A DNA stretch of 64,000 nucleotides. It comes from Symbiodinium sp. CCMP2592 (Eukaryota > Sar > Dinophyceae > Suessiales > Symbiodiniaceae). A model generated the notes under the pieces. That model worked only from the letters and a program-made list of their open reading frames with translations. It did not search any database and was not told where the DNA came from. The first letter of the stretch is position 1, and every line of letters starts with the position of its first letter. This document shows positions 3,001 through 53,227 of this stretch, in pieces. Made by a program: the position numbers and the translations under genes. The stretch spans positions 1 to 64,000 of the forward strand of contig CAJNDT010004913.1 in the NCBI GenBank assembly GCA_905221615.1, in the 5' to 3' direction.

Positions 3001-3899
3001 TGCTACCGGAGACGTCGGCGCAGAAGGCCTGCACCGTTGCGCTCACTTAAGTCACCCCGATTACTTGAGCTCTGCAGGCACCTCGGGTTCGAGAGATCCT
3101 GCCCAGTGCAAGAGGAATTATGCGAGGTATGTGCATCCTTGGAGATCTACGGGACAGGAGAACCCCCTGTGCTGCGCAGCACCGGGCCTTCCAGGAGAGC
3201 CGACGTTGGAATGCAAAGTCCTCGCCTTGGTCGTGGGCGTCTTTGGGCTCACTTCGCCTTCGTCCTCTCCCTCAGTCCAGCCGGGGCCTGAAGAGCGCTT
3301 TCGTAGGCCTTGCGTGCGCGATCCCTGCTCTCCGCCGCATTGTGCCCCGGTTGCTGAGATCGGAGCTCGGTCGCTTCACGACCTCCAGAGATCACAATTC
3401 TAGGCTTGCAATATCGCATGAGTCTCCTATGCAACGCTTATTTACAAAGGCTGCCTGTGATACCTGTTTTGCTTCTATGCAGCACATCCTGGAAGAGAAA
3501 CTCAATGGATTCTCTGCCGGTTTTCATCGTCTGGGCTCTCGCTCTTCGTTTCCACAAGTGCTTGGGTTAGATTTCCTGTGGGGGAAGACACCAATTCCTG
3601 TATGAAGCAGTGGCGAGTCAAGAAGCTGTGTACGAGGCATATGACGATGCCATAACCCTGAAACCGGCGGTGTCAACAACCAGCGCTTGAACCATCGCCC
3701 AAGCGAACTGCTCGTCGGCGCCTCATGTTTTCATAGGAAGAGCTACAGCATCACATGCCAGATGCTGCTCGTTCGATGACCGCATGAACAGTGGGTTGTT
3801 TTTATGGGTTTTATTCTCCCCCCCCCCCCCACAACTGCTAATCTCCCATATTGCAAAACTACCAGCGGAAACTGGTAGCACCACATTCAGCGGTACACA
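1..3899. other. Gene-poor left flank
   Basis: No convincing coding region is seen in this stretch. The open frames are short, overlap on both strands and show no recognisable motif. It holds a CTAC-type simple repeat at 1666-1695, a GTAT microsatellite at 1849-1885 within TG/AT-rich sequence (1680-1960), and a run of C at about 3819-3830 shortly before the direct repeat. Exons too short to recognise cannot be excluded. Confidence 0.6.
1849..1885. repeat. (GTAT)n microsatellite
   Basis: About nine uninterrupted GTAT units inside a longer tract rich in ATGTA and TACAT words. The repetitive peptides readable from either strand here come from the simple repeat and are not genes. Confidence 0.9.
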
Positions 3900-4228
3900 C
3901 ACACTTGACACATCGTGTCGCAGGTCTCAAATCACACTCTCAAAGTCAGAAGAGTCAGCTTCTTGATGCACCTTGAACCTTTGGCCTGAACTCGCACTCA
4001 GAATCGCACTCGGAATCACCAATGTACAGCGACGATGTCATTGCAGAACCATTGCACAGCTTGCACTATGGACGATGTCACAAATAATTAGCAGGTACAC
4101 AGTGGAGCGTCCTCCACTGCTTCACAGGCAACTGATGAGCGTCTTTGTTAGTGCCGGTCTCACCAGTGCCCCCGGCACCCCCTGCATTAGACACACTCGA
4201 CCCTTTGGAACAGGGATGGACACACACA
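3900..4228 (-). repeat. Direct terminal repeat, left copy (3' end in element sense)
   Basis: This copy matches 14571-14899 at 328 of 329 positions with no indel. It contains a perfect hairpin at 4100-4119 (8-bp stem, CGTC loop) and a second at 4151-4178 (7-bp arms GTGCCGG and CCGGCAC). Near identity of the copies suggests recent insertion or recombination, or concerted repair. Outside it lies CA-rich sequence. Confidence 0.95.
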
Positions 4229-4256
4229 AGCCCGAGTGGGCTCGTTGTAGAAGCAT

Positions 4257-4337
4257 TCACATCCCTTGCTCGTCACTTGCACATCCCTTGCACGTCCCTT
4301 GCACATCACTTGCACGTCCCTTGCACGTCCCTTGCTG
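4257..4337 (-). repeat. 11-nt motif array, spacer downstream of ORF I
   Basis: Seven head-to-tail copies of an 11-nt unit. In element sense (minus strand) the consensus is TGCAAGKGAYG. The array lies between the stop of ORF I and the left direct repeat. The same unit recurs in five other spacers of this element and not noticeably elsewhere in the window. Confidence 0.9.
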
Positions 4338-4381
4338 CTTTTTTCACTGAAATTCATGGAAGAGTCTTATGCTCAAGACAC

Positions 4382-4858
4382 CTAGGAGAGCGGGTTACGA
4401 AACCTCAGGAAGCGCAGTCTGTGCACTAAGTGCAATTCAACTTCTGCTTCTTCCGCATCGGCATCAAAGTACATGCAACATTGAGTTGCAGTTATGTACG
4501 CAACGCTGGCCAGTGACACGATACTCACTCGCAAACGCTCCTGTACTAGACCTACGACAGCTCTCATCCACCTTTTTGACGGGCTGCTCAACATGGTGCA
4601 TGCCACGACATTGATCTGTGCAAAACGGATGGTGGTATGCAGAGACTGAAAACCCATGGTCCACTTAGTCGAAGAGGACAGCCGGAACTCCTGTATCCCA
4701 CGTCGCAGAAACGTGTACGCCACCATGGTGTCAGTAATGGGTTGTGCCTCTTCAACGTCATCATCTGCATCGAGACGGGTAATGAATGTGATTCTGGTTC
4801 TGATCGGCAACACGTACATCAAGACGTTATCGAGCACATCGGAAGCAGTCCAATCCAT
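4382..4858 (-). CDS. ORF I, last accessory ORF of the 11-kb element
   Basis: This 158-residue protein is not recognised. It starts MDWTASDVLDNVLMYVLP and has alternating hydrophobic stretches suggesting beta structure. A short acidic segment follows (DADDDVEEAQ), with another acidic patch (DADAEEAEVE) near the carboxyl end. No signal peptide, clear membrane helix or catalytic motif is seen. It is flanked on both sides by 11-nt motif spacers (4257-4337 and 4919-5015), which mark it as one unit of the minus-strand gene set. Function unknown; a structural particle protein is possible but purely conjectural. Confidence 0.55.
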   Translation of the reverse strand: MDWTASDVLDNVLMYVLPIRTRITFITRLDADDDVEEAQPITDTMVAYTFLRRGIQEFRLSSSTKWTMGFQSLHTTIRFAQINVVACTMLSSPSKRWMRAVVGLVQERLRVSIVSLASVAYITATQCCMYFDADAEEAEVELHLVHRLRFLRFRNPLS

Positions 4859-4918
4859 GATGTTCAGGGTCTACACAATTTTCCGAGTGCTTGAAGCGAA
4901 ACTGCACACTCCTTACGT

Positions 4919-5015
4919 TGCACTTGCATAGACCTCGCACACCCTTGCATATCACTTGCAATTCACTTGCGCATCACTTGCATTCCGATTGCACATCCCT
5001 TGCACATCACTGCTC
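4919..5015 (-). repeat. 11-nt motif array, spacer between ORFs H and I
   Basis: A more degenerate array of the TGCAAGKGAYG unit (about eight recognisable copies, some with one-base changes or length slips). It fills most of the gap between the stop of ORF H and the start of ORF I. Confidence 0.85.
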
Positions 5016-5042
5016 TTGACTCGACAAAGAGGTGGGCTCTTT

Positions 5043-5351
5043 TTATACCGTAACGACGAAATCGATTGGTTCGAGGGTTTGAGCAGTCGTAACCGGTTCT
5101 GTAAATCGAAGGTGACGAAAGTTTTGTACAAGCTGGAAGGTGTGCAACCTAGGCCACCAGCCGAACTTCTCCCAAAGCTGCATCGCGACAAGGTATTTGG
5201 CACCGTTGATGGAATCGTTGATTGACAACTGGGTGTGGAGGATAATAGTCTCGTGTCCGGTTGCCCGACTGCATACACGAACCCACATCCGAAAATTGTA
5301 GTCGCGGCTGGTACTCCAAGGCAAATTGGCTTCGCTAGCCTTGCGCTTCAT
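5043..5351 (-). CDS. ORF H, small accessory ORF of the 11-kb element
   Basis: About 102 residues when started at MKRKASEANLPW; an in-frame ATG eight codons upstream (5373-5375) is the alternative. The amino end is basic (KRK). The remainder is rich in aromatic and beta-branched residues (MWVRVC, FGWWPRLHTF, PIDFVVTV). No known domain is recognised. A 38-nt motif shared with the leader of ORF B ends about 37 bases upstream of the chosen start (5388-5425), which favours the unit being transcribed or processed like ORF B. Confidence 0.5.
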   Translation of the reverse strand: MKRKASEANLPWSTSRDYNFRMWVRVCSRATGHETIILHTQLSINDSINGAKYLVAMQLWEKFGWWPRLHTFQLVQNFRHLRFTEPVTTAQTLEPIDFVVTV

Positions 5352-5415
5352 GATGGACAACCTACACGACTGCACTGGATGTCAAATGCTGCAACTCAAG
5401 ACGGCTCATGAAGAA

Positions 5416-5512
5416 ACCCTTGCACAGCCCTTGCACGTCACTTGCACGTCCCATGCAGAAACTCTTGCACATCCCTTGCACGTCACTTGCACGTCCCTTG
5501 CATATCCCTTGC
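5416..5512 (-). repeat. 11-nt motif array, spacer between ORFs G and H
   Basis: About eight copies of the TGCAAGKGAYG unit, partly organised as a longer duplication, between the stop of ORF G and the conserved 38-nt motif ahead of ORF H. Confidence 0.9.
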
Positions 5513-5547
5513 TGGCTCACGAACGCTTGTTTGCAACTGCTCTCGTT

Positions 5548-5937
5548 TCACTCTGAGACTTCAATTTCGTCAACTTCTTCTGCTGGAAGTGTTGGGGGCA
5601 ACTCTGTTGTTTCTTGATGTTGAAGAGAATTAACGCAATGAGTAGTCACAGCTTGAAGAGAATTCAAATCCGACAGCAAGTTCCCCACCACTTCGTTGGT
5701 CTTCTGAAGTGAATGAAACAGTTCTGTGGTGGCGGACATAACTTCCGCCACCTGAGCCTCAGTGTCCCTGATTTGTGTGGTGAGCACGTCGAGTTGAGCT
5801 TGTTGGATCTTCTGGACGGATAATGCTTCTTCACGAAAATGACGGAATTCACCTCTGATTGTGATCAGCTCCTGTTGTGTGTAGGAAATCCAGCGTTGAA
5901 GAGGTGCCAACGGATCGCACGCTGAGTTGCTCGACAT
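5548..5937 (-). CDS. ORF G, coiled-coil accessory protein
   Basis: About 129 residues starting MSSNSACDPLAPLQRWIS. The frame is open to 6000 and an earlier ATG exists, but the chosen start gives the better composition. The body (residues about 20-100) has heptad-like spacing of Leu, Ile and Val with Gln, Glu and Thr between (for example QQAQLDVLTTQIRDTEAQV), typical of a long coiled coil. The carboxyl end is acidic (EEVDEIEVSE). Coiled coils are common in Gag-like and structural proteins of retroelements, but no family is recognised. The gap to ORF F (5938-6105) lacks the 11-nt array. Confidence 0.6.
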   Translation of the reverse strand: MSSNSACDPLAPLQRWISYTQQELITIRGEFRHFREEALSVQKIQQAQLDVLTTQIRDTEAQVAEVMSATTELFHSLQKTNEVVGNLLSDLNSLQAVTTHCVNSLQHQETTELPPTLPAEEVDEIEVSE

Positions 5938-6105
5938 TAGCGCAATGGAACGAGACTTGAGCAGGGTGCTGCAACACTGTTCTGGTGTGTACCACAACAC
6001 GAGTAAACAAGTACTCTCAGCACTGGCGTCTACGGCACAGTTTTTCTCACTTCAGCACTCGCATGCGTTACAGATACAAGTGAAATCCTGTCACATCATT
6101 CATAC

Positions 6106-6752
6106 TCAGCTAAGATCAGAAGACTGACTGCGTCGCCGTCGGCGTGAAACACGTCTTCTGGTAGGCATAGGTTTGGATCTAATCGGAGTACCTGATGCGG
6201 CTGAAGATGTAGGTGCGGCTGACGACGAAGCAGCATTGGACACCAAAGGAGATTCAGACACACGATGCGCCAAGCTTGCAAGTGGCACTGGGGGTGGAAA
6301 GACAGGAGCACTGGCACTGGGCGGGGGGAAGAAGGGAGGGGGAAGAGGGGGAGGGAGGGGAGGAGGGGGAAGGGGGGAGGGCCAGGGGGAGGGAGGGAGG
6401 GAGGTGCAGAACTGGACGAAGGGTTGTCGCTGCCTGCACTCGGTGTACTCCTCGATATTGGCAGAGAGGATGGCGGTGCATAGGGGTGGGATCTGGACGA
6501 ACGTGATCCTGAAGCTCCGCTACTGCTAGGGCGTTCTTCACGTAGGTTTGCTCTATCCCTCTCATCCAAGCGACGCAACTCTTGCTGCAGCATTCTTTCT
6601 GTCCCGTCACGCACAAAAGCTGTCAACTGAAGTACGAGAGCTTGCCGAAGTTGTGGTCGTGATACAAAGTTGAGCAATCTCACACGCGCTGAATGGGTGA
6701 GCGCTCTCAGGAACTCATCAATGTTAGGATCCGAAGGTGGCACCGTCGGCAT
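6106..6752 (-). pseudogene. ORF F, Pro/Ser-rich basic protein with an apparent frameshift
   Basis: The frame starting at 6752 gives a helical amino half (residues 1-75, with RVRLLNF and QQELRRLDERDRANLREE), then Ser/Pro-rich sequence running into a polyproline tract. After the polypyrimidine run (about 6310-6400) that frame loses protein-like composition. A neighbouring frame takes over with an Ala/Ser-rich tail ending in an Arg-rich patch (TRRRVSRRRRRSQSS) and a stop at 6106. One indel in the homopolymeric region would explain this; it could be mutation, polymorphism or sequencing error. The basic tail suggests nucleic-acid binding. No known family. Confidence 0.5.
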
Positions 6753-6810
6753 GCTTGCTTACTCAGATAGTCTGGTTTCTTGGCCGAAAACACTGCGATA
6801 CACAGCACTA

Positions 6811-6902
6811 GCACTTGCTTGCACGTCACTTGCACGTCACTTGCACATCCCTTGCACGTCCCTCGCACATCACTCGCACGTCCCTTGCACATCCCTTGCT
6901 GC
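6811..6902 (-). repeat. 11-nt motif array, spacer between ORFs E and F
   Basis: Eight copies of the TGCAAGKGAYG unit, two of them with one base changed. It lies between the 27-codon frame at 6910-6990 and the start of ORF F. Confidence 0.9.
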
Positions 6903-6909
6903 TCACGTT

Positions 6910-6990
6910 TCACTCTGCTTGGACGAAGAACTCGTACTCCAGGACACGGGGGCACAACTCTTGCTCTGGTAGTTTTTCAGCAAGTGACAT
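6910..6990 (-). CDS. Possible 26-residue micro-ORF in the E/F spacer
   Basis: An ATG-to-TGA frame beginning MSLAEKLPEQELCPRVLEYE. It is too short to stand on its own, but it contains a 38-nt segment (6916-6953) that recurs at 10768-10805 with 36 of 38 matches. There the segment lies inside the GIY-YIG coding frame. The conservation may be at the nucleic-acid level, so coding is uncertain. Confidence 0.2.
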   Translation of the reverse strand: MSLAEKLPEQELCPRVLEYEFFVQAE

Positions 6991-7029
6991 GTAATCCTGT
7001 ACACTCCCGGTGACCAAATCAAAAAAGAA

Positions 7030-7440
7030 TCAAACGTTTCGGTTGGGACACTGTGCAGCGTACCAAAAATGGCAAGCACAGCGGAGGTTAGCTCTAATCA
7101 GCATTTTTGCACAAGCTTTCAACCGTGCTGCAGGATTTCGGTGAAACTGCATCGGATCGCCAAGCGTAATATCACTTGCTTCAGAAGGAACAGGTGAACG
7201 CTCACGTTTGTCCTTCTTAGACTTCATGGACTTCGGGGACTTGTTTGGTAACTGGTCCTTTTTCACCCTCTTTGATTTCTTGGACTTCTTGGTCTTCTTG
7301 CACTTGTTGGAGGACTTCTTAACCCAAGACGCCACCTCTGTGGGTGCCGAATCTTTGGGAGGATCGAAAGCCGAAGACCAGGAACTGGCATCATCAGGGA
7401 GATCGTCATATGGTACCCCATTGTCTTGACGGGAAGCCAT
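7030..7440 (-). CDS. ORF E, Lys/Ser-rich protein with a Cys-rich end
   Basis: About 136 residues if started at MASRQDNGVPYDDLPDD; the open frame continues upstream to 7566 with poorer composition. The amino part is acidic. Residues about 45-90 are a Lys/Ser tract (KKTKKSKKSKRVKK and similar), followed by a compact end RCACHFWYAAQCPNRN. The Cys/His spacing is reminiscent of a zinc knuckle but matches no standard CCHC pattern. A nucleocapsid-like, nucleic-acid-binding role is the simplest inference. It sits between ORF D and an 11-nt motif spacer. No family is recognised. Confidence 0.55.
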   Translation of the reverse strand: MASRQDNGVPYDDLPDDASSWSSAFDPPKDSAPTEVASWVKKSSNKCKKTKKSKKSKRVKKDQLPNKSPKSMKSKKDKRERSPVPSEASDITLGDPMQFHRNPAARLKACAKMLIRANLRCACHFWYAAQCPNRNV

Positions 7441-7568
7441 ATCGGTGTACCGAGAAAACAAGACGGAAACGGCTGGCGGCATCACATGAGTGAACAAGAA
7501 AGACTCCTTCGGCTTCCCGAGAGACAGAGAGAGAGAGGAGAGAGGAATGACAGAAAAGGCATACAACC

Positions 7569-7589
7569 GCGCGTAATGCTCCTACGCGC
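7569..7589 (-). other. Perfect hairpin in the D/E spacer
   Basis: Arms GCGCGTA and TACGCGC (7 bp) surround a 7-nt loop, about 130 bases upstream of the likely ORF E start. This spacer lacks the 11-nt array. In element sense the stem follows a run of A, so it does not look like an intrinsic terminator. Confidence 0.5.
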
Positions 7590-7728
7590 CATTTTTCAGT
7601 GCGCAAAGACGGTTCCACTTCTGCGGTGCAGGCGCTCTAATCCAGGAATGATGATTGTCCCAAAACTGTCAATTGGGAAAACGAATTAAGCAGACAAGTC
7701 GTCCGCTGTTCCAACATGATAAATGCTC

Positions 7729-7986
7729 TTACGGTGATGCATCTCGCTTGCGTTTTCGGGGTGACAAAGAATTAGTGCTCTCAGTAGGGAGGTTCAAGTC
7801 CACCGAAGAAGTCGTCTGAGAAGTTCGGTGCCACTGATTGTCAGCAGCCAGACGATCCGAAATCCAGCGAGAGGTGGCGGGAAACCAAGATTTCCACCAC
7901 GTTTCATTGCCATTGGGTCCTTGATTTTTCACCCAATAAAATCGCCACGAAACAGTCGGAGAACGCGATCGGGATCGATCCGACAT
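7729..7986 (-). CDS. ORF D, small Arg/Ser-rich protein
   Basis: 85 residues, starting MSDRSRSRSPTVSWRFYW. The SR repeats are followed by a Trp-rich middle (NETWWKSWFPATSRW) and a basic carboxyl end (SPRKRKRD). The RS-like start and basic tail suggest RNA or DNA binding. The conserved Trp residues suggest a small folded module, but no family is recognised. It is the first ORF after the reverse transcriptase, separated from it by the longest 11-nt motif spacer (8077-8268). Confidence 0.5.
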   Translation of the reverse strand: MSDRSRSRSPTVSWRFYWVKNQGPNGNETWWKSWFPATSRWISDRLAADNQWHRTSQTTSSVDLNLPTESTNSLSPRKRKRDASP

Positions 7987-8076
7987 GGCGTGTACCGCTG
8001 AAAGCCGAATGCTGGAACTGAGCGAGGCAATTAAAAGATCTTAAGCGGGCACATTGCATGCAAGACGCTGCCTCGA

Positions 8077-8268
8077 ATCACTTGCACTGCACTTGCACAA
8101 CCCTCGCATACCCTTGCATATCACTTGCAGTTCACTTGCACGTCACTTGCACAAAACTCGCATACCCTTGCATATCACTTGCAGCCCACTTGCACGTCAC
8201 TTGCGATCCTAACGAAGACAACGCTTGCACATCCCTTGCAATCCGCTAACATATCCCTTGCTCATCAC
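8077..8268 (-). repeat. 11-nt motif array, spacer between RT and ORF D
   Basis: The longest array of the TGCAAGKGAYG unit, degenerate and interrupted, with about fourteen recognisable copies and an internal duplication around 8101-8190. It separates the RT stop from ORF D. Confidence 0.85.
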
Positions 8269-8379
8269 TGTGATCTGACGCTTTCGGTTAACCCAATTGA
8301 ATCTAGGTGAGTACACACATATCAGCTTCGCTAACATTTGCAGGTCTGCTGTCGACTGTCAACTGATTGCAAACCGCTT

Positions 8380-9798
8380 TTATCGTTTCATCAAAGCTTC
8401 ACACAGGCGAAATGGGTATCCGAGGTTCGCCAACCATCGTACAAAGGTATGAACAGCGACTTCTGCTTGGCACGTTGGCCAGGTGTACTTACGGATAAGA
8501 GAGATTCTCGACTTCGCACCTGACACCAGCAATCGTTCGCTGCCTGCACTCATGGGATGTCGAACTTGCCAAAGGAACTTGGGCTGGATATAATAAATAG
8601 TTCGGTTTCGGACATCAATATCAAATCCCAAAAAGTGACCATCACCGACAGCTTCAAGAACAATCGGAGAGCCATAAAAAGTTTCTTGGCTGAAGACTTG
8701 AAAAGGCACTGTTTTGTGCACCTCGGTGGGTGCAATCACCAAACGATTGTCCACGTATCTTGCAAGGAACGTAGAAGGGAAGCTCGAGATCTGCGGAAAC
8801 ATTGCTGCCCAACCAAGCTCAGTCATCACCACTGGAAGGGAAGAGAGGACAGGGCTGATTTGGTTACCTATGGACGTACCATCAACTTGCTTCCATACTC
8901 GATTCAACGCCACAAACAAGCCACATTCGAAGCTGAGACGAACGATGGTAACCAAGTCGAATGGATCGATGGTCTTCCAATCGAAGTGTCGACGAATATT
9001 AGAAATCCTCCCATGAATTGAACGAAAGTGTTTGCTCTTCTCGTTGATGCACACTGACAATTTGACATCAGGGTGCCTTGCTGTGAACATGCGGACCAAC
9101 ATCTCCACTGCTTCCAGGATACGGCTTTGTGGCACGGAATTAAAGAACCCGACCAGATCGTCATTGAGTAGTTCAAGTTCAACTTCCAACGGACACTGTC
9201 TGAACACCTGGTGAATGTGATGCCAAATCTGTGGAACACTGCGTGACAAAGAACCAGGCCATACTGTGTTGACCATTTGGTCAATGCAAATCGCCGCTGC
9301 CCTAAGAATAGGGCCCAAGGCTGTGTTCTTGTAGCTGATGATGGTTCGTCCTGATTTGAAGGCCTTTTTGCGTTTGAGAAAAATCTGTCCGACAGGCAGA
9401 TTGGCATCCAACTTGAATCCCCAAGGGTACTTGCGAACCAGTGGTGACGGGACGTGCGCACAAAGAAAAAGCTTCGGGCTGAACACCTTGATATCTGACC
9501 ATACTCGATGGCAGGATTGGAAATAGAATCTGGGGCAAAAAACCATGAGATGAGTGGATTCGTGATCAGCAAGGTGAATCACCCAATCTGTACACACGAT
9601 GTCTTTGAGCTGCAACGCATGACACTCCTGGAATTTCGGGCATGAGCACATATGGCGAAGGTGAAGCTGCCACTCAGAATGAATGAACTGCAACCACATG
9701 GAAAGAGTATGCAAGGGAATAAAATGCGTCTTGCACCAACTCTTGTACGAAAAGGTCGCCTCCTTGATGTACTTGGCTTTGATGGGAAGACAAGGGAT
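8380..9798 (-). CDS. Penelope-type reverse transcriptase
   Basis: Open from just after a TAA at 9799-9801 down to 8380; the first ATG is at 9714. Residues below count from that Met. A Cys/His-rich segment (C23, C25, C31, C41) precedes the polymerase and may be a zinc-binding linker. RT motifs follow: a GRTIISYKN segment near 122-130, motif A as NDDLVGFFNSVP (184-195), the motif B region as GTSIGNQISPVLSS (279-292), motif C as ARYVDNRLV (318-326), then GDGHFLGFDID (357-367). The G-x-x-SP motif and RYVD context are typical of Penelope-like RTs. Motif C has Asn where the second catalytic Asp is expected. The frame is offset by one base from the nuclease frame upstream; whether by mutation or programmed shift is unknown. 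Confidence 0.8.
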   Translation of the reverse strand: MPCLPIKAKYIKEATFSYKSWCKTHFIPLHTLSMWLQFIHSEWQLHLRHMCSCPKFQECHALQLKDIVCTDWVIHLADHESTHLMVFCPRFYFQSCHRVWSDIKVFSPKLFLCAHVPSPLVRKYPWGFKLDANLPVGQIFLKRKKAFKSGRTIISYKNTALGPILRAAAICIDQMVNTVWPGSLSRSVPQIWHHIHQVFRQCPLEVELELLNDDLVGFFNSVPQSRILEAVEMLVRMFTARHPDVKLSVCINEKSKHFRSIHGRISNIRRHFDWKTIDPFDLVTIVRLSFECGLFVALNRVWKQVDGTSIGNQISPVLSSLPVVMTELGWAAMFPQISSFPSTFLARYVDNRLVIAPTEVHKTVPFQVFSQETFYGSPIVLEAVGDGHFLGFDIDVRNRTIYYIQPKFLWQVRHPMSAGSERLLVSGAKSRISLIRKYTWPTCQAEVAVHTFVRWLANLGYPFRLCEALMKR

Positions 9799-11096
9799 TT
9801 AGAATTGGCCTGAGCAAGTTCTCTAAGAACGGGTTGGCGAAATGACAACGTCTCAAGTCCAGTAGCCACATGTCCATCCACCAAGTCCACATTGGGGTGC
9901 TGCTGCTGGAATTGTTGGCATCTGCATGGAAGGTGATGAACTGGTGTATCAGCAAGCTGCTTCTCCCACTCAAAATGATTGTGAAGAATGGAGCCCAACG
10001 ATTGAGGAGCAGACTCTCTCGGCGTCTTAGAGGGGAGGTGAAACGGGATGCAAATGCCTTTGAACTGCTGGATGGTATGAGACAGAAAAGAAGAGACATG
10101 GGCAGCAAAAGTGGGGTGAGACAGAAATGGTAGAGTGACTGACTTGTTATGTCGGGGTACAGAGCAGTTACGAAACTTGAGCGCAGACTTGAGCAGCTGT
10201 ACCACTCTAGATCTGAAAGGCTGCTCCATGATCTTGGCCATGCGGAACATCGCGTACAACTCTAACGTCGAGACTTTGGCAGATCTGACAATTTTCGCAG
10301 CAGAGAAAGATGCCGAGGTCAACGATGCCAAATCATACAAGAGCGACCACGCTTGGCTTTTGTCCATCAAGCATCGAATCGGAGTACTTGTTGAAGCAGC
10401 ACGTCTTCGAACTTTGACCCAAAGTCTGGAAAACAATGAAACATTCTTGAGAGATGGACGTGGCCTGAGTCTCTTGAATCCCAATGCAGACTTAATGAAG
10501 AAACGGTCAATGAACGGTGAATTCAATCTGGGTTGCCACCGATCAATAAGAACATGCTCTTGCACCCACGCTTGTTTGTAGTCATCATGAACAGACAGAC
10601 AAAGCGTAGAAAAGTCGAAATACCTGCCCAGCGAAGCCCAAATACGAATGGCTGGTTCAACTTGAACATATTGCTCACGAAGAACTTGCTTGAGTTTGGA
10701 TTGCCGGTTGAATTCACGCTTGGAAATAGTAATTGAAGTACTTCCAACATACATCCATCTGTCTCTTTGCTTGAACGAAGAACGCGTACTCCAGGACACG
10801 GGGGCTTTCAAATAAACTGCACAAGGACTCTGGAACCGTGTGAACGTGTAATCAGACAGCGTGACTCCAGCTTTGCGCAATTTTTCAAGCAGCCGTTGTT
10901 CTGGCGAAGTACCCCTGGAGTAATGGAACAGTAGAATCAGATGACAAAAACCTTGCAACCAAATGGCCATCACTTTGTCCACATGCGGAATGAACTGAAG
11001 CACAAACGACATGAACTTGCCGACCTCTGTAATAAGAACATGTGCTGACCGAATCTCCTTTGCGGAGAGTTGATTGGAAGCAAGGCTGTGTGCAAT
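9579..11096 (-). CDS. GIY-YIG endonuclease frame (pol amino part, ORF C)
   Basis: Open from the codon after the ORF B stop (TGA 11097-11099) to 9579; first ATG at 11012. Counting from that Met, the nuclease motifs are AVY (65-67, the GIY position), YVG (88-90, the YIG position), Arg99/Arg103, Glu152 in QEHVLIDRW and Asn164 in PRLN. That set and order match the GIY-YIG fold used by Penelope-like elements to nick target DNA. About 300 residues of unrecognised linker follow. The real protein probably leaves this frame near 9794-9803, where the RT frame takes over; the last ~70 codons here look non-coding. A nuclease amino-terminal to RT is the permuted order. Confidence 0.75.
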   Translation of the reverse strand: MAHSLASNQLSAKEIRSAHVLITEVGKFMSFVLQFIPHVDKVMAIWLQGFCHLILLFHYSRGTSPEQRLLEKLRKAGVTLSDYTFTRFQSPCAVYLKAPVSWSTRSSFKQRDRWMYVGSTSITISKREFNRQSKLKQVLREQYVQVEPAIRIWASLGRYFDFSTLCLSVHDDYKQAWVQEHVLIDRWQPRLNSPFIDRFFIKSALGFKRLRPRPSLKNVSLFSRLWVKVRRRAASTSTPIRCLMDKSQAWSLLYDLASLTSASFSAAKIVRSAKVSTLELYAMFRMAKIMEQPFRSRVVQLLKSALKFRNCSVPRHNKSVTLPFLSHPTFAAHVSSFLSHTIQQFKGICIPFHLPSKTPRESAPQSLGSILHNHFEWEKQLADTPVHHLPCRCQQFQQQHPNVDLVDGHVATGLETLSFRQPVLRELAQANSKSLVFPSKPSTSRRRPFRTRVGARRILFPCILFPCGCSSFILSGSFTFAICAHARNSRSVMRCSSKTSCVQIG

Positions 11097-12263
11097 TCAG
11101 ACAACCTGAAAGGCTGCTGCTGCGATGCACGTAGAGAGACTCTTGATACCCATCCTAGATGCAAAAGTCGCCGAGATCCCGAATTTTACTGCAAGTTCTT
11201 GCAGTTTTGCTTTCTCCTTGCCTCCGTAGTTGATCTGCACAAGCTTGGAGACAGACGCAATGTGTTCTTGAAAATCGACAAAGCGCTTTCCTAGGGGTCG
11301 TTTGAAGCTCTGGATCCACTTGTCGACGTCCCCCTCTCCTGATCCCTTTAATCGGGCTTTGTGATCATTCAGGGCTTCTGCAGGAACACTGTCGATCTTA
11401 CGCTTGAGGTCACTCTCCCAAGTCTGCGGTGGTGTCACGGATTGTGGACACGGAGCACTAGATTGCGAGGCAACCGGGAGCTGTGTTTGCAAAGCGGGTT
11501 TCGTGGGGGTAACGGGAAGTCCTGCGGCTTGTAACTGTTCACGGCGGCGATTGAGCTCTTCCGTAACTTGAAGAAACTTCTGAGATTGATCGACGCCTGC
11601 AGACACCGGCATGTTGTCGAACATGAGCTGAACGATCTTGTCAACCATCGGCTGAAACAGAGCTGCACAATCCGTGTTCTTGTTGGGAATGATTGTAGAT
11701 GGATTAGCGGCCTGAAAGAGATGCGTAGCAACTGCGTCGATGTCAACTTTGCGATCTCGAAGGTTCTTCGTGACTTGCGACATGAACACTGCTTCGGCAA
11801 CCGTAGCAACTGGCACAACACTGAAAAACTTGCCATGACTCAATGCTCGAAGACGCCAATCTGAGACTCCATGAAACAGGAATTCCTGAACAGGAATGCT
11901 GAGTGGGTCTTTTCCTGCGATCCCTTTCTTCCGCGACCACGGGGTGGCTTCGATGGACTTACGAAAGGACAACCCATGAAGTACCGTTGAATCATAATGA
12001 TCACGATCTGACGCCCATCCATTCGGTAGTGCAGGAACAGGACCAGGACCTTGATGACATGGCATGGGAGTAGACGGCGAAGATGAAGGTGCCGAAGAAA
12101 GAGGAGGCGGTGGTAGTGGAGGTGGCTGACTAGCAGGTGCAGACTTGGAGAGGTTGGGATCAGTCCAACTTCCCGAGTTATACGGCTGATAGCGGTGCTG
12201 ACCCCACGATTGCTGGGACCTCCCGTACCCTGTGCTGTTGTCCCACTGCCCATTCCATGCCAT
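11097..12263 (-). CDS. ORF B, gag-position protein upstream of pol
   Basis: 388 residues. The amino end is Gly/Asn/Gln/Tyr-rich (MAWNGQWDNSTGYGRSQQSW), followed by a polyproline/Ser stretch (residues about 45-70). The middle, about 95-215, is largely helical. The end holds a helix-turn-helix-like segment (AKLQELAVKFGISATFASRM). It has no recognised domain. It sits where gag would be and shares the reading frame of the nuclease ORF, separated from it by one TGA. Residues on either side of that TGA read as continuous helical protein. A Gag-like RNA-binding role is inferred from position and composition only. A 38-nt motif in its leader is shared with ORF H. Confidence 0.6.
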   Translation of the reverse strand: MAWNGQWDNSTGYGRSQQSWGQHRYQPYNSGSWTDPNLSKSAPASQPPPLPPPPLSSAPSSSPSTPMPCHQGPGPVPALPNGWASDRDHYDSTVLHGLSFRKSIEATPWSRKKGIAGKDPLSIPVQEFLFHGVSDWRLRALSHGKFFSVVPVATVAEAVFMSQVTKNLRDRKVDIDAVATHLFQAANPSTIIPNKNTDCAALFQPMVDKIVQLMFDNMPVSAGVDQSQKFLQVTEELNRRREQLQAAGLPVTPTKPALQTQLPVASQSSAPCPQSVTPPQTWESDLKRKIDSVPAEALNDHKARLKGSGEGDVDKWIQSFKRPLGKRFVDFQEHIASVSKLVQINYGGKEKAKLQELAVKFGISATFASRMGIKSLSTCIAAAAFQVV

Positions 12264-12355
12264 GGTTTCAGATCTATCAACAAATCTGAATACGCGGAAT
12301 CACTAACGTCACTTCGAATCAAAAAGCTGCAACTCGAGACGGCTCATGAAGAAAC

Positions 12356-12486
12356 TCTTGCACATCCCTTGCACGTCACTTGCACTTCCGATGCATAAAC
12401 TCTTGCACATCCCTTGCACGTCACTTGCTCTTCTCACTTGCAGTACACTTGCACGTCCCTTGCAATACACTTGCACTACCCTTGCA
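12356..12486 (-). repeat. 11-nt motif array, spacer between ORFs A and B
   Basis: About ten copies of the TGCAAGKGAYG unit, with some length slips. In element sense it precedes the 38-nt motif at 12326-12363 and the ORF B start. Confidence 0.9.
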
Positions 12487-12569
12487 GATTTTCGTCACAT
12501 GTAAACGTGCACAGCAGGTGACAACGGAAGAGACTTGAAGGCGTGGCCGGTCAAAGCAGCATGTTGCAC

Positions 12570-14267
12570 TCAGACCCTCCAAAAAACAAGAAGCGCTTCC
12601 GGGATGAAACATGAAGAGCGAAAGACCCATCTGCCATCTTTGGCACGGGCAACATCACGAATGTAGCTGCAGGAATGGTCACCTTCGACCCCTCCCATGG
12701 GGATTCTTGAATGGGGAGGTGTGAGGGATCCTTGACGATTAAATGCATGTCCGAAAATGCACACCGGCCGCTCACTCAGAATGCCACCGTACTTGGCTGC
12801 TGCTTCTTGTGCTTGTTCTGCATCTGAAGTGTGAGCCCTAGCATAGAAGGAAATTGGTGGGGACCACTTGCTGTCACTAGCATCCCACCAAGAAGGTCGA
12901 ATCGCTCCCTCAAGAAGGATCGATGCAGCCGCTGCCACTATTGTGTTGTGTGCAACAGGAGAACGACGAATCCCTGCTGCAGAAGCATGCGACCTGATCA
13001 TGGTCCTCTCAAAGTGGGTGAAGTGGATGCTCAAGCACTTGCACGAACTCGACAAAGAACGAAGCTCCACAGAATGAATGTTTGCGGCTTGATCAGCTGC
13101 TGCAATTGCCTGAGAGACATACTTCAATGCTGTCGAATTGACAGCGTGGGGAGGAAGACCTAACAGGCTGATCAGATAGTCCGCCGTGTTTTGCATCAGA
13201 GAGCTGGGAACCTGCAACTCAAGATTGGCCGGAATCTTTGCCGAAATCTCACATGCCGATTTCATGCGGCCAGGGCTGGAACTGATCAAGTGACGTAGAG
13301 CAGTAAACATGGGGTATAATGCGGCCCAATTGAAGCTAGATGAATACACGCGTATCAGCTTCGCTTCTTCATCTCGCACTTCCAACCCACGAAGTTCAGG
13401 AATCACGAAGAAGTTTGAATCTTGCTCCCACTCAACTTCCACATGCCCTTTGAGAAGAGATCGATTCTCAAAATGCTCATACGAGTCTTGCAGCGGTCTA
13501 ACTCGAAAGACGTAAGTCTGGTCCGCACTGAGCTGCCACCCTACGCGATCTGCATGAGTACCCGGAATCTGATCACAAATTGCACGAAGTCGAATGCTGT
13601 TAGGATCTGCAACGAGAGAAACTTCATTTCCAGGAACTTGCCGAAGTCGCTTTGTTGGCTGGGCTGAATCATCCGTTTGATACGTGATGGCTGACTGCTG
13701 GCTCTGAACAGATGCTGTTGACTGATTCCGTTGAGAAACAACAGACTGCTGAATGTCAAGCAAATTGTTGAGGCCAGCATACACATCTCTGTGGCCTCGG
13801 ACATGTGTCAAGTTTGCTGCCATAATCGCTGAGTATTCAGCGAAATCAGCCACCGAACGAAACGACAACCGGAAACCTGTGCCATCTGCATGAAGAGTGA
13901 TTGCAGGGGAAGCCTCTTGCTGCGGAATCTGCCGATCATTTACAGGACGTGCAGCAATCAAAGTAGGAGTTACCTCTGTAGCTCTCGCTCCAACATCTGA
14001 TGCAGAAGGGACCGGCAAAGAAGAAGATGAGGCAGGCGCTGGACAAACTGCAAGAGTGGGGGGTGGCGGGGGGAAGGCGGGAGGGGGAAGGGGAGGGGGG
14101 GGTGGAATCCACTTCGCTGTGGTACCACGGGCGGGGGCAGGGGCGGAAGTGGGGGGGGGAGGCACAGGGAGATGGGGGAAGGGGGAGGAAGGAGGGGGAG
14201 GAGGAGGTGGGGGAGGAGGGGGAGGGGCTGATGTGCGGGTACTGCGTCTCTTTCCTGAAGAATCCAT
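12570..14267 (-). CDS. ORF A, large Pro-rich first ORF of the 11-kb element
   Basis: 565 residues. Residues 1-85 are dominated by polyproline with Ser and Ala after a short basic start (MDSSGKRRSTRTS). The rest reads as folded protein: a segment around 130-165 (GFRLSFRSVADFAEYSAIM), a mixed alpha/beta region to about 330, and an Ala-rich helical carboxyl half. No catalytic motif or known family is seen. As the first ORF after the leader it may be a structural or nucleic-acid-binding protein. The polyproline tract is coded by a long C/T-rich sense strand (G/A-rich on the plus strand). Its intact length argues that the element is fairly young. Confidence 0.6.
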   Translation of the reverse strand: MDSSGKRRSTRTSAPPPPPPPPPPPPSSPFPHLPVPPPPTSAPAPARGTTAKWIPPPPPLPPPAFPPPPPTLAVCPAPASSSSLPVPSASDVGARATEVTPTLIAARPVNDRQIPQQEASPAITLHADGTGFRLSFRSVADFAEYSAIMAANLTHVRGHRDVYAGLNNLLDIQQSVVSQRNQSTASVQSQQSAITYQTDDSAQPTKRLRQVPGNEVSLVADPNSIRLRAICDQIPGTHADRVGWQLSADQTYVFRVRPLQDSYEHFENRSLLKGHVEVEWEQDSNFFVIPELRGLEVRDEEAKLIRVYSSSFNWAALYPMFTALRHLISSSPGRMKSACEISAKIPANLELQVPSSLMQNTADYLISLLGLPPHAVNSTALKYVSQAIAAADQAANIHSVELRSLSSSCKCLSIHFTHFERTMIRSHASAAGIRRSPVAHNTIVAAAASILLEGAIRPSWWDASDSKWSPPISFYARAHTSDAEQAQEAAAKYGGILSERPVCIFGHAFNRQGSLTPPHSRIPMGGVEGDHSCSYIRDVARAKDGRWVFRSSCFIPEALLVFWRV

Positions 14268-14279
14268 GGCAAACTGATC

Positions 14280-14570
14280 AGCAATTACTCAGAAGTACAG
14301 CTCGGAAACTCGATTTGTAGCCAAAGACCTGCGACAAGTCAGCGAACAAGTCAGAATCGGGAAAGTCGATTTGATCATAGACAGTCAATGAGAAAGTCAG
14401 CATTCAGGTTTCGGTAGAAGCATTCGGTGAAGACTCATTGGGAAAGTCAGCTTGCAAGCACGGATATAGAATCAGGGAAAGTCATCCAATGCTTATACAG
14501 TCAATCGGGAAAGTCAACGCCAGAGCTACCTCTGGGAGACACGGCGCCCATAGGGAATGCCGTTGTGAAG
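14280..14570 (-). promoter_or_regulatory. Element leader with repeated TGACTTTCCC boxes
   Basis: Between the right direct repeat and ORF A. Five copies of a box reading GGGAAAGTCA on the plus strand (one base variable) lie at 14359, 14391, 14440, 14475 and 14507, unevenly spaced by 31-49 bases. Related AAGTCAG words are also nearby and in the direct repeat. Position suggests promoter, packaging or processing sites; nothing in the sequence decides which. Confidence 0.45.
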
Positions 14571-14899
14571 CACACTTGACACATCGTGTCGCAGGTCTCA
14601 AATCACACTCTCAAAGTCAGAAGAGTCAGCTTCTTGATGCACCTTGAACCTTTGGCCTGAACTCGCACTCAGAATCGCACTCGGAATCACCAATGTACAG
14701 CGACGATGTCATTGCAGAACCATTGCACAGCTTGCACTATGGACGATGTCACAAATAATTAGCAGGTACACAGTGGAGCGTCCTCCACTGCTTCACAGGC
14801 AACTGACGAGCGTCTTTGTTAGTGCCGGTCTCACCAGTGCCCCCGGCACCCCCTGCATTAGACACACTCGACCCTTTGGAACAGGGATGGACACACACA
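14571..14899 (-). repeat. Direct terminal repeat, right copy (5' end in element sense)
   Basis: Second copy of the 329-bp repeat, differing from 3900-4228 only at 14807 (C instead of T). It carries the same hairpins, at 14771-14790 and 14822-14849. It runs directly into a CA microsatellite at its outer edge. Confidence 0.95.
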
Positions 14900-16940
14900 C
14901 ACACACACACAGAGAAACTCTCTTCTTTGACTCCTATGCTTCTCTGAGCATGCTGACTCATGGCGAAATGCAGAGTTTCCCACCTCGCCTCTGAGACCAT
15001 CTGGTTACATGATGCCGTGTCCGCTGGCTCAAAGGACCTGGCTGCAGAACTCTGACCACACCTCACCCCACCCTGACGTGCCATATGGTCGAGTCATACA
15101 TCCCTCGGAGCAGCACATTGTCATAGCCTCCGGCCGGCCTGGAAATTCGATTGCACAGCTATGGGACAAAGCCTGCGATCTCAGCCCGCCTCCCTGGCAT
15201 GAAAATCGGAGAGGTGTGGCAGGTTGTAACGGTACGACAGATCTTGTGTGCTGCTCTCAACCTTTTTGCTGCGACGCATAATAAACTCATCATGAGGCCA
15301 GCCATTCCTCTCGGGCACAAATGTGCACTCATTGAGACGATGGTGTGCAGCTTGATTCCAACCAAGTTAAACGGCTTGAGCCGTGCGACGTCCAGGCGGC
15401 CGTGAAGCACAAGGGTCTGTCGGCAGTCAAAGCACCGCCGCATCGCACTGAGAAGCTGAAGTTGTGGCTGGTTTGCTATGAATCCTGCATTGCGTTAATC
15501 GTTAACGAAAGGATGAGCAGTGGCCTGGGCGAACACAGCTGCATCTTTGCTGACGAGTTTAGGCCATTGCTCATCCACCAGAGACTGCTTTGCAGATCGC
15601 TGCAGAGACACGATGGTCAGGATGTGGCTGCTAGACAGCCTCCCGAATTTTTCAATGGCATCCCTAAAAGGCCCAATTGGGTGCGACCTGGGACTGTGGG
15701 GTGGGCCCACTGGGGCCCTTCCCGCGCGATGCTCCTAACGGAGGCCCTGGACCACGTGGTGGCCTGCCCAAGGGCGGGCCGGGCCCCAAGGCTGGGCCCG
15801 GGCCGCCCGGGAAGCCGGCGGGAGCCGCCGCAGGCGCCGCCGCAGCTTGTGGACTCGACCCTTCCGTTCCGGAACTCCTCACACCAAGCACACCATGAAA
15901 AGCACTGACGCCACAATCGAACTCGTGCTGCACGCCATGGCCTTGGCGACATGGCCGGAGACTGCGATGAACGCGAAGGTGCCTGACCTCGCGGATGAGT
16001 TTCTCACGTGTCAAACGGGAACTCACCTGAATGTCGCCAAGTGGCTGCCCATCTGGCTGCCAGCAGCGCTTGCAGAAGCGGAGGCTGCCCCCCGTAAGGA
16101 GGCACCTACCCTGCGTGACCTCAAGCAATTGGAAGACTCTAGCAGCTCGGGGTAATTGGTCGAACTGGCCAACTTCCCAACCCGATGGACACTAGACTCC
16201 GGCAACCCTCTGAGCAAAGCCAATAGACTGGCCCCTGAGAAGAGAAGCTGCTGATTTTCAGACAGGCTGCCCTGACGCAGCTCCCCTCAGGGAAGCCTCC
16301 CAACACTGCTTGCACAACAGATTGCTTTGCAACGAAGGCATTCGCTGTGGGCGCCGGCCTTCCCGCGCCGGCCGGGCTTTTCGTTGTCATCCACGCCCGC
16401 AGCCAATTTTGAGTACCACTCCTGTCAGGTCTTTGAGTAGAGAGGAAAACCTGTGTAAGACACGTGAATGCCATGGCACAGTGAGGCTGTATGCTCGTCG
16501 CGCAAAACAGCATCTGCAGTTGCAACAGGACAGGTCTTACGACACATGCACTGTGTTCAAGATTCACAGCCGTCCCATGGGGTTTCTTGGTATGCACCAG
16601 CGCGCAGTCGTAAAGGCAGCGCAGTGCGGCAATAAACCACCGCATGGCATGAACGTGCAAAGGCAACTTGAGGGAAGCCGACCCGTTTCTTAGCTTTGTC
16701 GGACTGCGTTCAACTTCAGCCATCGGCAGCAATTGTATGTACAGCTCCGAGGGTTTTGCTTCATTTTCATGCATTTCCCCATGCACCAACTCGGAAAGGC
16801 ACCTGTTGGAGCTTGTCCTGGGTGTCCTGCCAGCTTCCTGTTGGAAGATTTCGCGCGTGCCTTAGGCAGGGGGGGGCAGCACGGGCAAGATTCAGGCTGC
16901 ACGTTCTTACCTCTAGAGCTGTGCCTAGTTCTCCGCCAGC
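14900..16940. other. Unassigned stretch between the 11-kb element and the decayed LINE
   Basis: Contains CA-rich sequence at its left edge and a GC-rich block (15690-15860) whose Gly/Pro-rich readings on both strands are compositional. Apart from one possible small exon (15895-16155) I see no recognisable gene, RNA or repeat. Confidence 0.5.
15895..16155 (+). CDS. Possible small hypothetical gene or exon
   Basis: An 86-residue frame from MKSTDATIELVLHAMALAT to a stop at 16153-16155, with composition closer to real protein than the opposing frames. It has helical Ala/Leu/Glu-rich segments and an acidic Ser-rich end (LEDSSSSG). No known family, signal or motif is seen. It may be a single exon. 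Weak call. Confidence 0.25.
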   Translation: MKSTDATIELVLHAMALATWPETAMNAKVPDLADEFLTCQTGTHLNVAKWLPIWLPAALAEAEAAPRKEAPTLRDLKQLEDSSSSG

Positions 16941-20227: not shown

Positions 20228-23200
20228 TCATCTGCGTCGCTCAGAGTCTCTGCATATTGCTTGCATACCTGCCTCTGGCACCGCCTCTGATTCCTCTTGC
20301 GCCTCTGCAGGCTCCTTCGAAGGAGCTGCAAGCTGACCTGACAGAGGTCCATGAAAACCACTCCGATGCCGGGATGCCCAATTTGTTCCCTTTCCCTTTG
20401 ACACGAGCAGGATGCAGATGCACATTTTCTCGGCTGCTGCTTTCCCGTTCCCCCCCCCCCTTATTATTAAACCGAGCAGGGGGGCAGCGACGAATCTTTA
20501 CAGGCCACGCCGCCACGCCTGGCGGGTTGCACGGCGCCACGCTTGGGCGAACCCGCTCCAGGCGCTTCACGGAAGCCTGCACCGAGCAGGACATCGCAGG
20601 ACTGGGCGTGAAGTGAAGCTCGCTAATTACCCAGGCATGGCCATCCCACTGGCGACATGCGGCACAACCTCCACATCATTTCAGGCCAGTATGTCCAAGC
20701 TTCCCTTGCATCTTCCGAGGCACTCTCCCGTAGAATGGGGGCACTCCAACAAATTCAATAAATGGACGCGCACGTTTATCCCGAAGTGGGGCAGACGACT
20801 TGGTGAAAGATCTGGAGCATTCGGCAAGAATCAGTGTTGTGTAGACGAAACGAGAAACTGTTGCTGGTGTTCTTAGCCTCGAAATGGGAATGCTCCGAGA
20901 AATTACGAGAGACTGAAATCTTGGTTGCGGGTGCGTCTTAGTCGCTGTGCCAAGCCGAGCCAAGAAGCGTGTGTCCAGGCGAGGTTTGATTCAAGACTGG
21001 CAAACAAACCAAGAGCTGCAACATTCAGTAAGCCTTGCAAGATTTGCAAATTAATGAAAAGCAGCTCCTCTGCTCCTCTCCACTTTTGGAGGTTTTTCGT
21101 CGTCATCATCCTCAGCAGCATCATCATCGTCATCATCAACAGCATCATCATCATCACAATATATCTGCAAGCATCATCACATCGTCATCGCCATTCGAAT
21201 CTCATGTCCGGACGTCGTCATCACCACCACCACTCCACCCCCACCCACCCCTCCCCCGAGATCCACAGAAGAATCCTGGGCAAAGGTGCTTGACGCACCC
21301 CTTATTCAAGCGTCAAGAGTGTTTAGAGAAGACCAGCCAAGAAACGCTAAACCGCAAGAAGCTCGGAAGGTCACGGCCTCCGTCTCCTTCGGCTTCGCCT
21401 CCTCCACGGTGGACGGCTCTGGCATCCTGCACCGACAGAGACGGTTGGGGCGCGTGCAAAGTCGTCATGCCAACGTTCGAAGCGAAGGCCTTCTTTGCTG
21501 CAGCCGTCGCACATTGACACAAAAGCCGGTGAGTCTTGCTTGGCAAAGCAGCCAACAGTATCATTCTCACGCCTCTCACCCCCTGAACTTCTGGGCGTTC
21601 ACCAATTGCCTGCCTCTGCCTTGAAGGAGCACTCGGAGGAGAGGTCTCCTGCACATCGGAGGTGATACCCATGGACCGTTCCACTGGTCCGGCATGCAGC
21701 AAGAAAGCAGGCACAGGTTTTCATGCAAAACCCTTGCTTGCCGCATTTGAGCAGTCCTCCACTGCATCTGGCGTCTTCGCTCCTCAAGCCGAACTTCGAC
21801 CCCCACCCCCGGCTTTCCCAGCATGGTTCTGCTTGTCTCCGCAGCGTCAAGCACGCAGTCCCCACAGGATCTTCAAGCAAATCTTCACTGATGTGTTCGT
21901 GAGAGGATGCTGCTCATGGATCGCGGATTCAGTCGAAAATTCTGACGCCAAGCAACGCATGCCTACAGCATCTGCAAGCCTCATCTGCAAGCCTATCTGC
22001 AAGCCTATCTGCAACAAGCTGGGTCTTTGGAAAGCTGTATGGGAACACATTGACATGGCGCCGGACCAGATGGGCTGCGAGGACGCAGAGGGAGACGTGG
22101 GACCTGACACGACATCTGCTTGGAGGAGGTGCGTGGCATCTCGTGTTCCACATCGACTAGACCTGGCACTGTTAAGGTGACCTTGTCCCCAGCAAAGCCA
22201 TCAAGTCTCCGAGGAAAGTCCCTACCCCAGGGAGAGAAAGACACCTGACCGATATGCCGAAACCCTTACGGTTGCTCCCGATACGTGCCCTGCCTGCTTC
22301 ACGGCCGTCGGGCCTAGCTTCGGTTCTACAGCCAACAGCTTGCAACTGCCGCTGGTCTGGGCGATTGGCTTGGAGCACTTGGCGGCGTCTGAATCTTCGG
22401 TGCCTTGAATGATGCGAAACCCGAAATCGCTCCATGGTGAGAGATGTAATGTGATGCAATGCTGTGCGCCTCCGGGACCGCCGGCTCCTCCTGAGGCTCC
22501 GCGACAGATTGGAGCTGGCCTTCCGGTTGGACACACAGTGCTAATGTCTGCAACCATATGCCAGCTGCCAGCCTGGTGGGCTGCACGGCACCTTGCTTGG
22601 TGGAGTGGGAGCCGGAGCCTTTGCGGAAGCCTCCATGCACTGCCATCGGATCCGGGTGTGGCTCGTGAAGTTCAGGGAATCTCCGAAAAGATGAACCTTC
22701 GAAAGATACCTGCCACTTCAGTCCGTTACATGGAGTCGCGAATGTCTGCGGCGTCTTGTCCTTCATTCAATCCTGTTTGAGCTCGCCGCAGCGCAGGTGA
22801 AACTTGTACGCTTCAGCTCTTTACAGCGTGCTGGGTCTGGGCTGTCCCTGGTGCTCACCAAGGTACAGTACCTCTCTGCTTTGCGGATTTGGGCCTTCAT
22901 CCTGTGATTCCCCTGCCACGAAGCAACAAATCACGAGTACCCCTGCACGGTGCTCGCTTCTTCAGGCGCCCTCGTGGGGGCTTTGCCCGCTTATGAGGTA
23001 AGGTGGATGCGACCTTACACACATAGTCATCATCTTTTAACTTCGTGGCGGCGTGAAGAGTTGCAAAGGTGTGTGTGTGTGCGCGCGTGCTGTGCGTGCA
23101 TGCGTGCGCACACGCACCCCTGGTCGGGAGCCTCCAATTGTGGCAAGAAATCCAGGAGCACGTGCGATGGGACCTGCTGAGTCCCCCACTGGCTGACATG

Positions 23201-49239: not shown

Positions 49240-49671
49240 GGGGTTAAACCCAGGTTTGAACCTGGGTTTGAGATTCCGGGGGGGGAAACAACAACAACAA
49301 CCCAGAGAACCCAGGTTTGAAACCTGGGTTAAACCTGGGTTTGAACCAGGGTTTGAACCTGCGTTAAACCTGGGTTTGAACCTGGGTTCAACCGAGTTAA
49401 ACCCAGGTTTGAACCCAGGTTCAAACCCAGATTTGGAACCCGGGTTTAAAAACCAGGTTTAAACCCCGATTATAACCCAGGTTCTAAAACCCAACCCAGG
49501 TTTGAAACCCAGGTTCTAACCCAGGTTTGGAACCCGGGTTTAAAAACCAGGTTTAAACCAAGGTTAAAACCCAGGTTTGAAACCCAGTTCTACAACTTAA
49601 CCCAGGTTTGAAACCCAGTTCTAACTCAGAATTGGAACCCAGGTTTAAAAACCCAGGTTTAAACTAAGGTT
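49240..49671. repeat. Array of palindromic AACCCAGGTT / AACCTGGGTT units
   Basis: Short units AACCCAGGTTTGAA and their inverse alternate with A/T spacers. The left third is mostly in one orientation, the right two thirds in the other, so long fold-back structures are possible. It ends in a T run. Peptides readable here (LNPGLNPG and similar) are repeat products. Confidence 0.9.
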
Positions 49672-49689
49672 TTTTTTTGGCTTGACTGG

Positions 49690-50345: not shown

Positions 50346-50357
50346 AGTTTTTGGAGT

Positions 50358-50880: not shown

Positions 50881-50955
50881 GGGGGCTGCGCCTCCAACCC
50901 CCCGCTGTTTTTAGAAGCTTGCCGAAAACAAAGAAAAAGACCACAATGACCAGTT

Positions 50956-51405: not shown

Positions 51406-51841
51406 GAGAACAAGAAGCAAGACAAGAGTCTCTGGTTCGGAAACTCCATGTTCGAACTCTGGGTTCGGGAAACTCAATGTTCGAAACCTCGGCCTCAACA
51501 AAACCGCCAGTGTTCGAACTCTGGGTTCGGAAACTCTATGTTCAAACCTTGGGTTCAGAACTCCAGGTTCAACTCCAGTTCAAGAAGTTCGGAGTTCAAC
51601 TTGGAGTTCAACTCAAAGTTCGAACCCAGGGTTCGGAGGAACTTCAATGTTCGAACCCTGGGTTCGAGGCTCGAACTCTAGTTCGGAGTTGCAGAAACTG
51701 GGTTCGAAACTCTAAGTTCCTTGTTTCGAACCCAAAAAACCTGTTTTGCCCAGCCCGGCAACGGTCCTGCAGGTTGAAAGTGCCAGCTGTGCTGCGCAGT
51801 CTCACAGGCGGCTCCTAAATGCAGGCAGAACACATCGCCCA

Positions 51842-53190: not shown

Positions 53191-53227
53191 GGTTTCGAAG
53201 CCTTCAAAGTCTGGGTGCTACATTGTA

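Follow-up and report, generated by a model that had tools for sequence, protein, structure and literature searches.

Among retroelements, Penelope-like elements (PLEs) stand nearest to telomerase, and most descriptions present them as small. We report here on an element of about 11 kb with about nine open reading frames (ORFs), carried by a 64,000-nucleotide stretch of the Symbiodinium sp. CCMP2592 genome (contig CAJNDT010004913.1, positions 1 to 64,000; hereafter the window), which is most probably an autonomous, recently active, giant PLE, and which suggests that the class can be more complex than is commonly described. Among the known systems with which it can be compared, the Naiad and Chlamys PLEs, described by Craig et al. 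in 2021, are said to carry a GIY-YIG-like domain N-terminal to the reverse transcriptase (RT) within one main ORF and to be a few kb long. Set alongside this description, the window element appears to share the GIY-YIG-like domain placed before the RT in one ORF, but differs by its size, its number of ORFs and its arrays of an 11-bp repeat.

Canonical Penelope and Poseidon elements, of 4-6 kb (PMC6431247), combine a GIY-YIG endonuclease (EN) with a telomerase-like RT, as the window element appears to do, and resemble it in their direct pseudo-long terminal repeats (pLTRs) and in forming full or partial tandems; their EN is, however, C-terminal, and they have a single ORF, with a second one in forms that lack the EN (PMC11167929 and PMC3846280). 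In these sources the target given for PAc and for the Penelope EN is AT-rich, whereas the window family is found mostly in (TG)n. The Athena-type terminons of bdelloid rotifers provide a third comparison: these too are of giant size, have additional ORFs and a telomerase-related RT and occur in tandem, but they are described as EN-deficient, as sitting at telomeric repeats and as having a 3' hammerhead ribozyme (PMC6431247). The window element has an EN-like domain and an RT in one ORF and mostly ends in (TG)n, and neither attachment to telomeric repeats nor a 3' hammerhead was found. An earlier, sequence-only reading of the locus had proposed a protist counterpart of the terminons and had taken these to be without GIY-YIG; their EN deficiency stands but total absence does not, as terminons can carry stand-alone GIY-YIG-like ENs (PMC6431247). 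Because ends and target differ, the parallel with terminons is kept as an analogy only, and closer equivalence is given up.

All parts of the element lie on the minus strand. It is bounded by direct repeats of 329 bp each, the 5' pLTR at 14571-14899 and the 3' pLTR at 3900-4228, which differ by a single mismatch (T at 4136, C at 14807; E=2e-168). From right to left, the order is 5' pLTR, leader, A, B, EN-RT, E, F, G, H, I, J and 3' pLTR, the leader (14361-14515) carrying five GACTTTC motifs that start at 14515, 14483, 14448, 14398 and 14367. Outside the repeats, the 5' flank, read in the direction of the element, is a (TG)n tract (CA on the plus strand; 14900-14910), and the 3' flank is a short remnant of such a tract (3895-3899). 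The sequence-only reading had noticed the 329-bp repeats with their one differing base, which is borne out, terminal repeats also recurring in further copies. It had counted about ten same-strand ORFs, and minus-strand ORFs A to J are indeed present, but the GIY-YIG domain and the RT, which it listed as separate ORFs, belong to one gene. Its proposal of a large retroelement holds in that conserved extra genes share one unit with a Penelope-type RT and a GIY-YIG-like domain; its structural genes and its possible new lineage are conjecture.

The element is part of a large and recent family in its own genome. A search of this 1.098-Gb genome with the RT gave 997 candidates, at least 95 of which were scored as copies (window copy included; 91-100% identical), and the stop-to-stop RT frame reaches at least 900 codons in 66 of these 95. 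A search with ORF A gave at least 77 scored copies (82-100% identical), 64 of them being followed on the same strand, at a distance of 2.8-3.2 kb, by a scored RT copy. Ten copies from eight loci, a non-random sample taken from the top RT matches, were compared with the window copy; ten more were sampled for their ends, and four copies of lower identity (C35, C641, C3571 and C4866, hereafter the divergent copies) for their 3' half. Among those read whole, copies with both terminal repeats span 10.7-11.1 kb. Other copies with the same ends and ORF order, the check that the sequence-only reading had proposed, were thus found: A, B, EN-RT, E, F, G, H, I and J are matched in order in nine of the ten further window-type copies, some frames being broken or shortened. 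Conversely, a copy with only B-C-RT between the repeats, which that reading would have taken as evidence against itself, occurs neither in the window nor among the ten window-type copies and the four divergent ones (3' half only), an absence qualified by the divergent copies nevertheless lacking module E-F. Tandem units are present in C942, with two LTRs head to tail, and in C979, where the pair shares its middle LTR.

A frame break, located near 9.78 kb, divides the EN-RT gene of the window copy into a first part with the GIY-YIG-like domain and a linker (9579-11012) and a second part with the telomerase-like RT and its RYVDN motif (8380-9798). Both share one open frame in nine of the ten further window-type copies, the frame starting late in C3358; the protein has 885 aa from its ATG in seven of the ten, and relatives from other sources, e.g., P0034 and P0051, also have a single frame. 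The RT match of the window copy is 1332 bases long versus 1356 in the next-best copies, a shortage of 24 bp. Because most other copies and the relatives carry EN-RT in one frame, the window copy is a damaged one; programmed frameshifting at the break was considered and dropped, since most copies read through in one frame. When a model of the RT was submitted to Foldseek, the top 16 matches were all telomerase, which is what a PLE would predict. Two cysteines before the RT, C394 and C396, are invariant across 16 relatives and form a C-x-C motif that may be equivalent to that of Naiad and Chlamys. The RT tree comprises 39 rows, i.e., the window copy and its relatives, with no named PLE-clade sequences among them, and no RT relatives were found in a viral contig collection or in prokaryote genome contigs. 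The EN-like part was tentatively assigned from the general GIY-YIG motif pattern: an alignment shows 16 invariant columns in all seven sequences, including YxGST, R, E, EH and N. Conditional on this assignment, the EN-like part is N-terminal to the RT. A 44-bp piece of its coding region (10762-10805) recurs with 91% identity at 6910-6953, in the spacer between F and G.

Direct terminal pLTRs and tandem copies, both characteristic of PLEs, are found repeatedly. Both repeats are present in C2624, C3358, C3657, C2, C5196, C4701 and the first units of C942 and C979, and also in C35 and C147, whose repeats start differently. The window-type LTR starts with TGTGTGTGTCCATCCCTGTTC and ends with GACACGATGTGTCAAGTGTG, while the start is TGTGTGTCCAACTCTGTTTCC in the four divergent copies and TGTGTGTCCAACCCTGTTTCG in C71 and C147; LTRs delimited by exact motifs measure 270, 277, 321, 345, 356 or 448 bp. 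Within one copy, the two LTRs differ by 0-5 bases with no indel (nine copies), whereas 21-62 differing bases plus 50-192 unaligned ones separate LTR types. As pairs match within a copy while middles differ between subfamilies, both LTRs seem to be remade from one template in each cycle. These strong differences are seen among copies that share about 94-99% identity with the window element in their internal parts, which gives the middles the look of having been swapped or of evolving very fast; the C979 array, for its part, terminates in a different LTR type.

LTRs homogenised within a copy while their types diverge are also what strand transfer between LTRs would produce, and replication of the true LTR type with a telomerase-like RT would make the family a formally hybrid class. 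We consider this unlikely: no convincing Pfam match was obtained for any of the ten ORFs, so that there is no sign of an integrase, a protease or a gag, and hence of the gene set of LTR retrotransposons, and the RT is nearest to telomerase. In addition, the GIY-YIG-like domain and the tandem units fit PLEs, and a target-site duplication would be unreadable in TG tracts.

The preference for (TG)n is marked. The outer 5' junctions show at least six TG units beyond the LTR's own in 10 of 10 cases, and 12 of 13 outer 3' junctions have at least five TG in 26 nt, a density reached by 3% of random 26-mers from the window; these counts omit the divergent copies and two C942 junctions that adjoin another LTR. 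On the 3' side of the divergent copies, C641 has 5 TG in 26 nt and C3571 has 12, C4866 being uncounted. In C3358, the nine bases that close the element occur a second time ahead of the TG tract, which might reflect slippage during priming.

The extra ORFs are ORF A (12570-14267; 565 aa, with a proline-rich N-terminus and a conserved C-terminal part), B (11097-12263; 388 aa), E (7729-7986; 85 aa), F (7030-7566; 178 aa, lysine-rich, with a possible start ATG at 7440), G (6096-6752; 218 aa in the window copy, where the frame is broken in a proline-rich tract), H (5548-5937; about 129 aa, coiled-coil-like), I (5043-5351; 102 aa) and J (4382-4858; 158 aa). Together with EN-RT, they make up nine ORFs in which synonymous change exceeds nonsynonymous change. 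Between two sets of 5 and 5 copies (fewer for some ORFs), the ratio of nonsynonymous to synonymous differences per site (pN/pS), uncorrected and averaged over non-independent pairs, ranges from 0.10 to 0.28 across A, B, EN-RT, E, G, I and J (A, 0.22; B, 0.16; E, 0.20; I, 0.10) and reaches 0.46 in F and 0.55 in H. Comparison with the divergent copies, at a synonymous divergence (dS) of 0.37-0.58, yields ratios of nonsynonymous to synonymous divergence (dN/dS) of 0.13-0.15 for H, 0.18-0.20 for J and, over its N-terminal part, 0.17-0.28 for G. These substitution patterns indicate that the extra ORFs are genuine genes under purifying selection.

In the Pfam search, ORF H gave coiled-coil-like matches below the cut-off; a PDB sequence search with I and J returned no convincing match, and the predicted structure of ORF A was uninformative (predicted local distance difference test score, pLDDT, 30). 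An ADP-ribosyltransferase-like domain in ORF A had been suggested by reading the letters, but no analysis supported it. Several small conserved proteins without library match, with low dN/dS and proline-rich or coiled-coil parts, could also belong to an endogenous virus-like agent, i.e., a PLE in which some of A, B, G, H and J are acquired genes for particle formation. This possibility is given little weight, as Pfam returns nothing convincing for any accessory ORF and the PDB sequences nothing for I and J, the model of ORF A is of no help and viral contigs contain no relatives of the RT.

ORF B may be linked to the RT elsewhere, too. Searches outside this genome suggest that relatives of A and B, and likewise of B and the RT, lie on the same contigs: the longest contig with A relatives and the longest with B relatives both measure 29218 bp, and for B and RT relatives the shared length is 9423 bp. 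Furthermore, in the EukProt gene model P0076, an N-terminus resembling B (E=1e-9) is connected to an RT stretch that is 80% identical to P0009 over 165 residues, with the caveat that gene models may be wrongly fused, and P0098 is a distant relative of B (26%). From these hints, B seems to travel with the RT clade beyond the family of the window.

Comparison of the copies also points to a modular element in which whole gene cassettes differ between subfamilies. The divergent copies keep G, H and J, while E and F are unmatched, and the homology picks up again some 20 bp past the F-G array, at element position 8102; in all four, the slot of ORF I is occupied by ORF K, of 189 codons, with no significant match to the window ORFs. 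In the window, 11-bp arrays, with a unit like GTGCAAGGGAT, fill six gaps: A-B (12357-12486), RT-E (8081-8205), F-G (6818-6899), H-I (5417-5512), I-J (4923-5011) and J-LTR (4258-4335), while B-RT, E-F and G-H are array-free. Tandem Repeats Finder (TRF) detected this unit at no other place in the window. Eight of the ten further window-type copies have all six arrays; C4926 and C5382, both without the 3' end, have the first five. A tandem or circular window-type unit would put one array ahead of every module.

Variable E-F and I/K modules, and the occurrence of host DNA between pLTRs in PLEs (PMC3846280), might suggest a chance juxtaposition, in which unrelated host genes or transposons were trapped between two repeat copies together with a small element made of B and EN-RT. 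This is very improbable, given that the nine ORFs recur at other places in nine of the ten further window-type copies, are under apparent purifying selection and keep an identical order in independent copies with different outer flanks. Segmental or satellite amplification of a PLE-containing host locus, for which tandem copies could be invoked, is scarcely credible with ends that are sharp and recurrent and outer flanks that differ on many contigs.

Several observations nonetheless weigh against a giant autonomous PLE. Some copies are incomplete or broken: the RT frame is shorter than 900 codons in 29 of the 95 scored copies, and for 13 of the 77 ORF A matches a scored RT is missing from the expected position. 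In C5382, J is absent and EN-RT is split; ORF B lies in two frames in C4926; C3358 combines a short G and a late EN-RT start with an internal deletion of roughly 300 bp; the C942 copies match F only in part; in the second C979 unit, C3358 and C3657, the match to A begins at residue 37 or 86; and the G frame is only 118-120 codons long in C3571 and C4866. The EN assignment rests on motif order, the first Y being present in six of seven relatives; the domain has no Pfam match, and a PDB profile search retrieved UvrC only weakly (E about 0.9). As for the ends, both LTRs were recovered in only four of the ten copies sampled (C5196, C4701, C35 and C147); in the others, LTRs may have been missed because the windows were guessed or the motifs exact, and nothing was obtained from C2535. 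C4866 is without the exact end motif, and in C35 only 2 TG are present in 26 nt of 3' flank. Contrary to strict regeneration from one template, LTRs of two types are found in the second C979 unit. Target-site duplications are unreadable because the insertions sit inside microsatellites. Hammerhead ribozymes are frequent, though not universal, in PLE terminal repeats; none was detected in the window element by an Rfam scan at E<=10, and a core-motif scan, which could miss a diverged motif, found no match inside any LTR. Finally, the divergent copies have arrays at H-K and K-J only and none before the 3' LTR, and the role of the 11-bp arrays as expression or exchange signals is a guess.

Under the preferred reading of a giant PLE, a full-length RNA would be transcribed from the 5' pLTR, and the 11-bp arrays may split it into mRNAs or start the expression of each of the modules that they separate (A, B/EN-RT, E/F, G/H, I and J). 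The GIY-YIG-like domain would nick the CA strand in a (TG)n-(CA)n tract, and the freed CACA end could pair with UGUG at the 3' end of the RNA and prime reverse transcription, in a use of the template that can be likened to that of telomerase. Copying of the 5' TGTGTG would yield a cDNA end able to anneal on the far side of the tract, followed by second-strand synthesis. Both terminal repeats would be regenerated from one template per cycle, for which RNA from a tandem or circular donor unit would be the simplest source, and the arrays might additionally serve as repeated homology for module exchange by template switching or recombination. It is possible, if doubtful, that the family represents a new superfamily altogether, a virus-like replicon in the making that would unite a telomerase-type EN-RT, six exchangeable cassettes with 11-bp arrays, proteins for RNA packaging or trafficking, and telomerase-like pairing in TG microsatellites.

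Gene gain and cassette exchange in PLEs would extend, as these data suggest, beyond the EN-deficient telomeric terminons of rotifers. With many recent copies, mostly open EN-RT frames, a marked preference for (TG)n and ends that could pair with it, the family offers a natural test system for telomerase-like priming. No such element was apparent from titles and abstract openings in the literature on PLEs and retrotransposons in dinoflagellates, Symbiodinium and protists, most subscription papers falling outside this search, and Penelope goes unmentioned in the main text of PMC11453091 and PMC12014239.

Elsewhere in the window, minisatellites are dense at 49307-53780, and the sole tRNA call (Ile, 49418-49506) lies inside one of them and is probably false. 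A direct repeat of about 1 kb (21947-22922 and 24783-25733) is 95.6% identical between its two copies, and a plus-strand ORF of 2628 aa at 54153-62039 has, by eye only, the look of a copia-type polyprotein.

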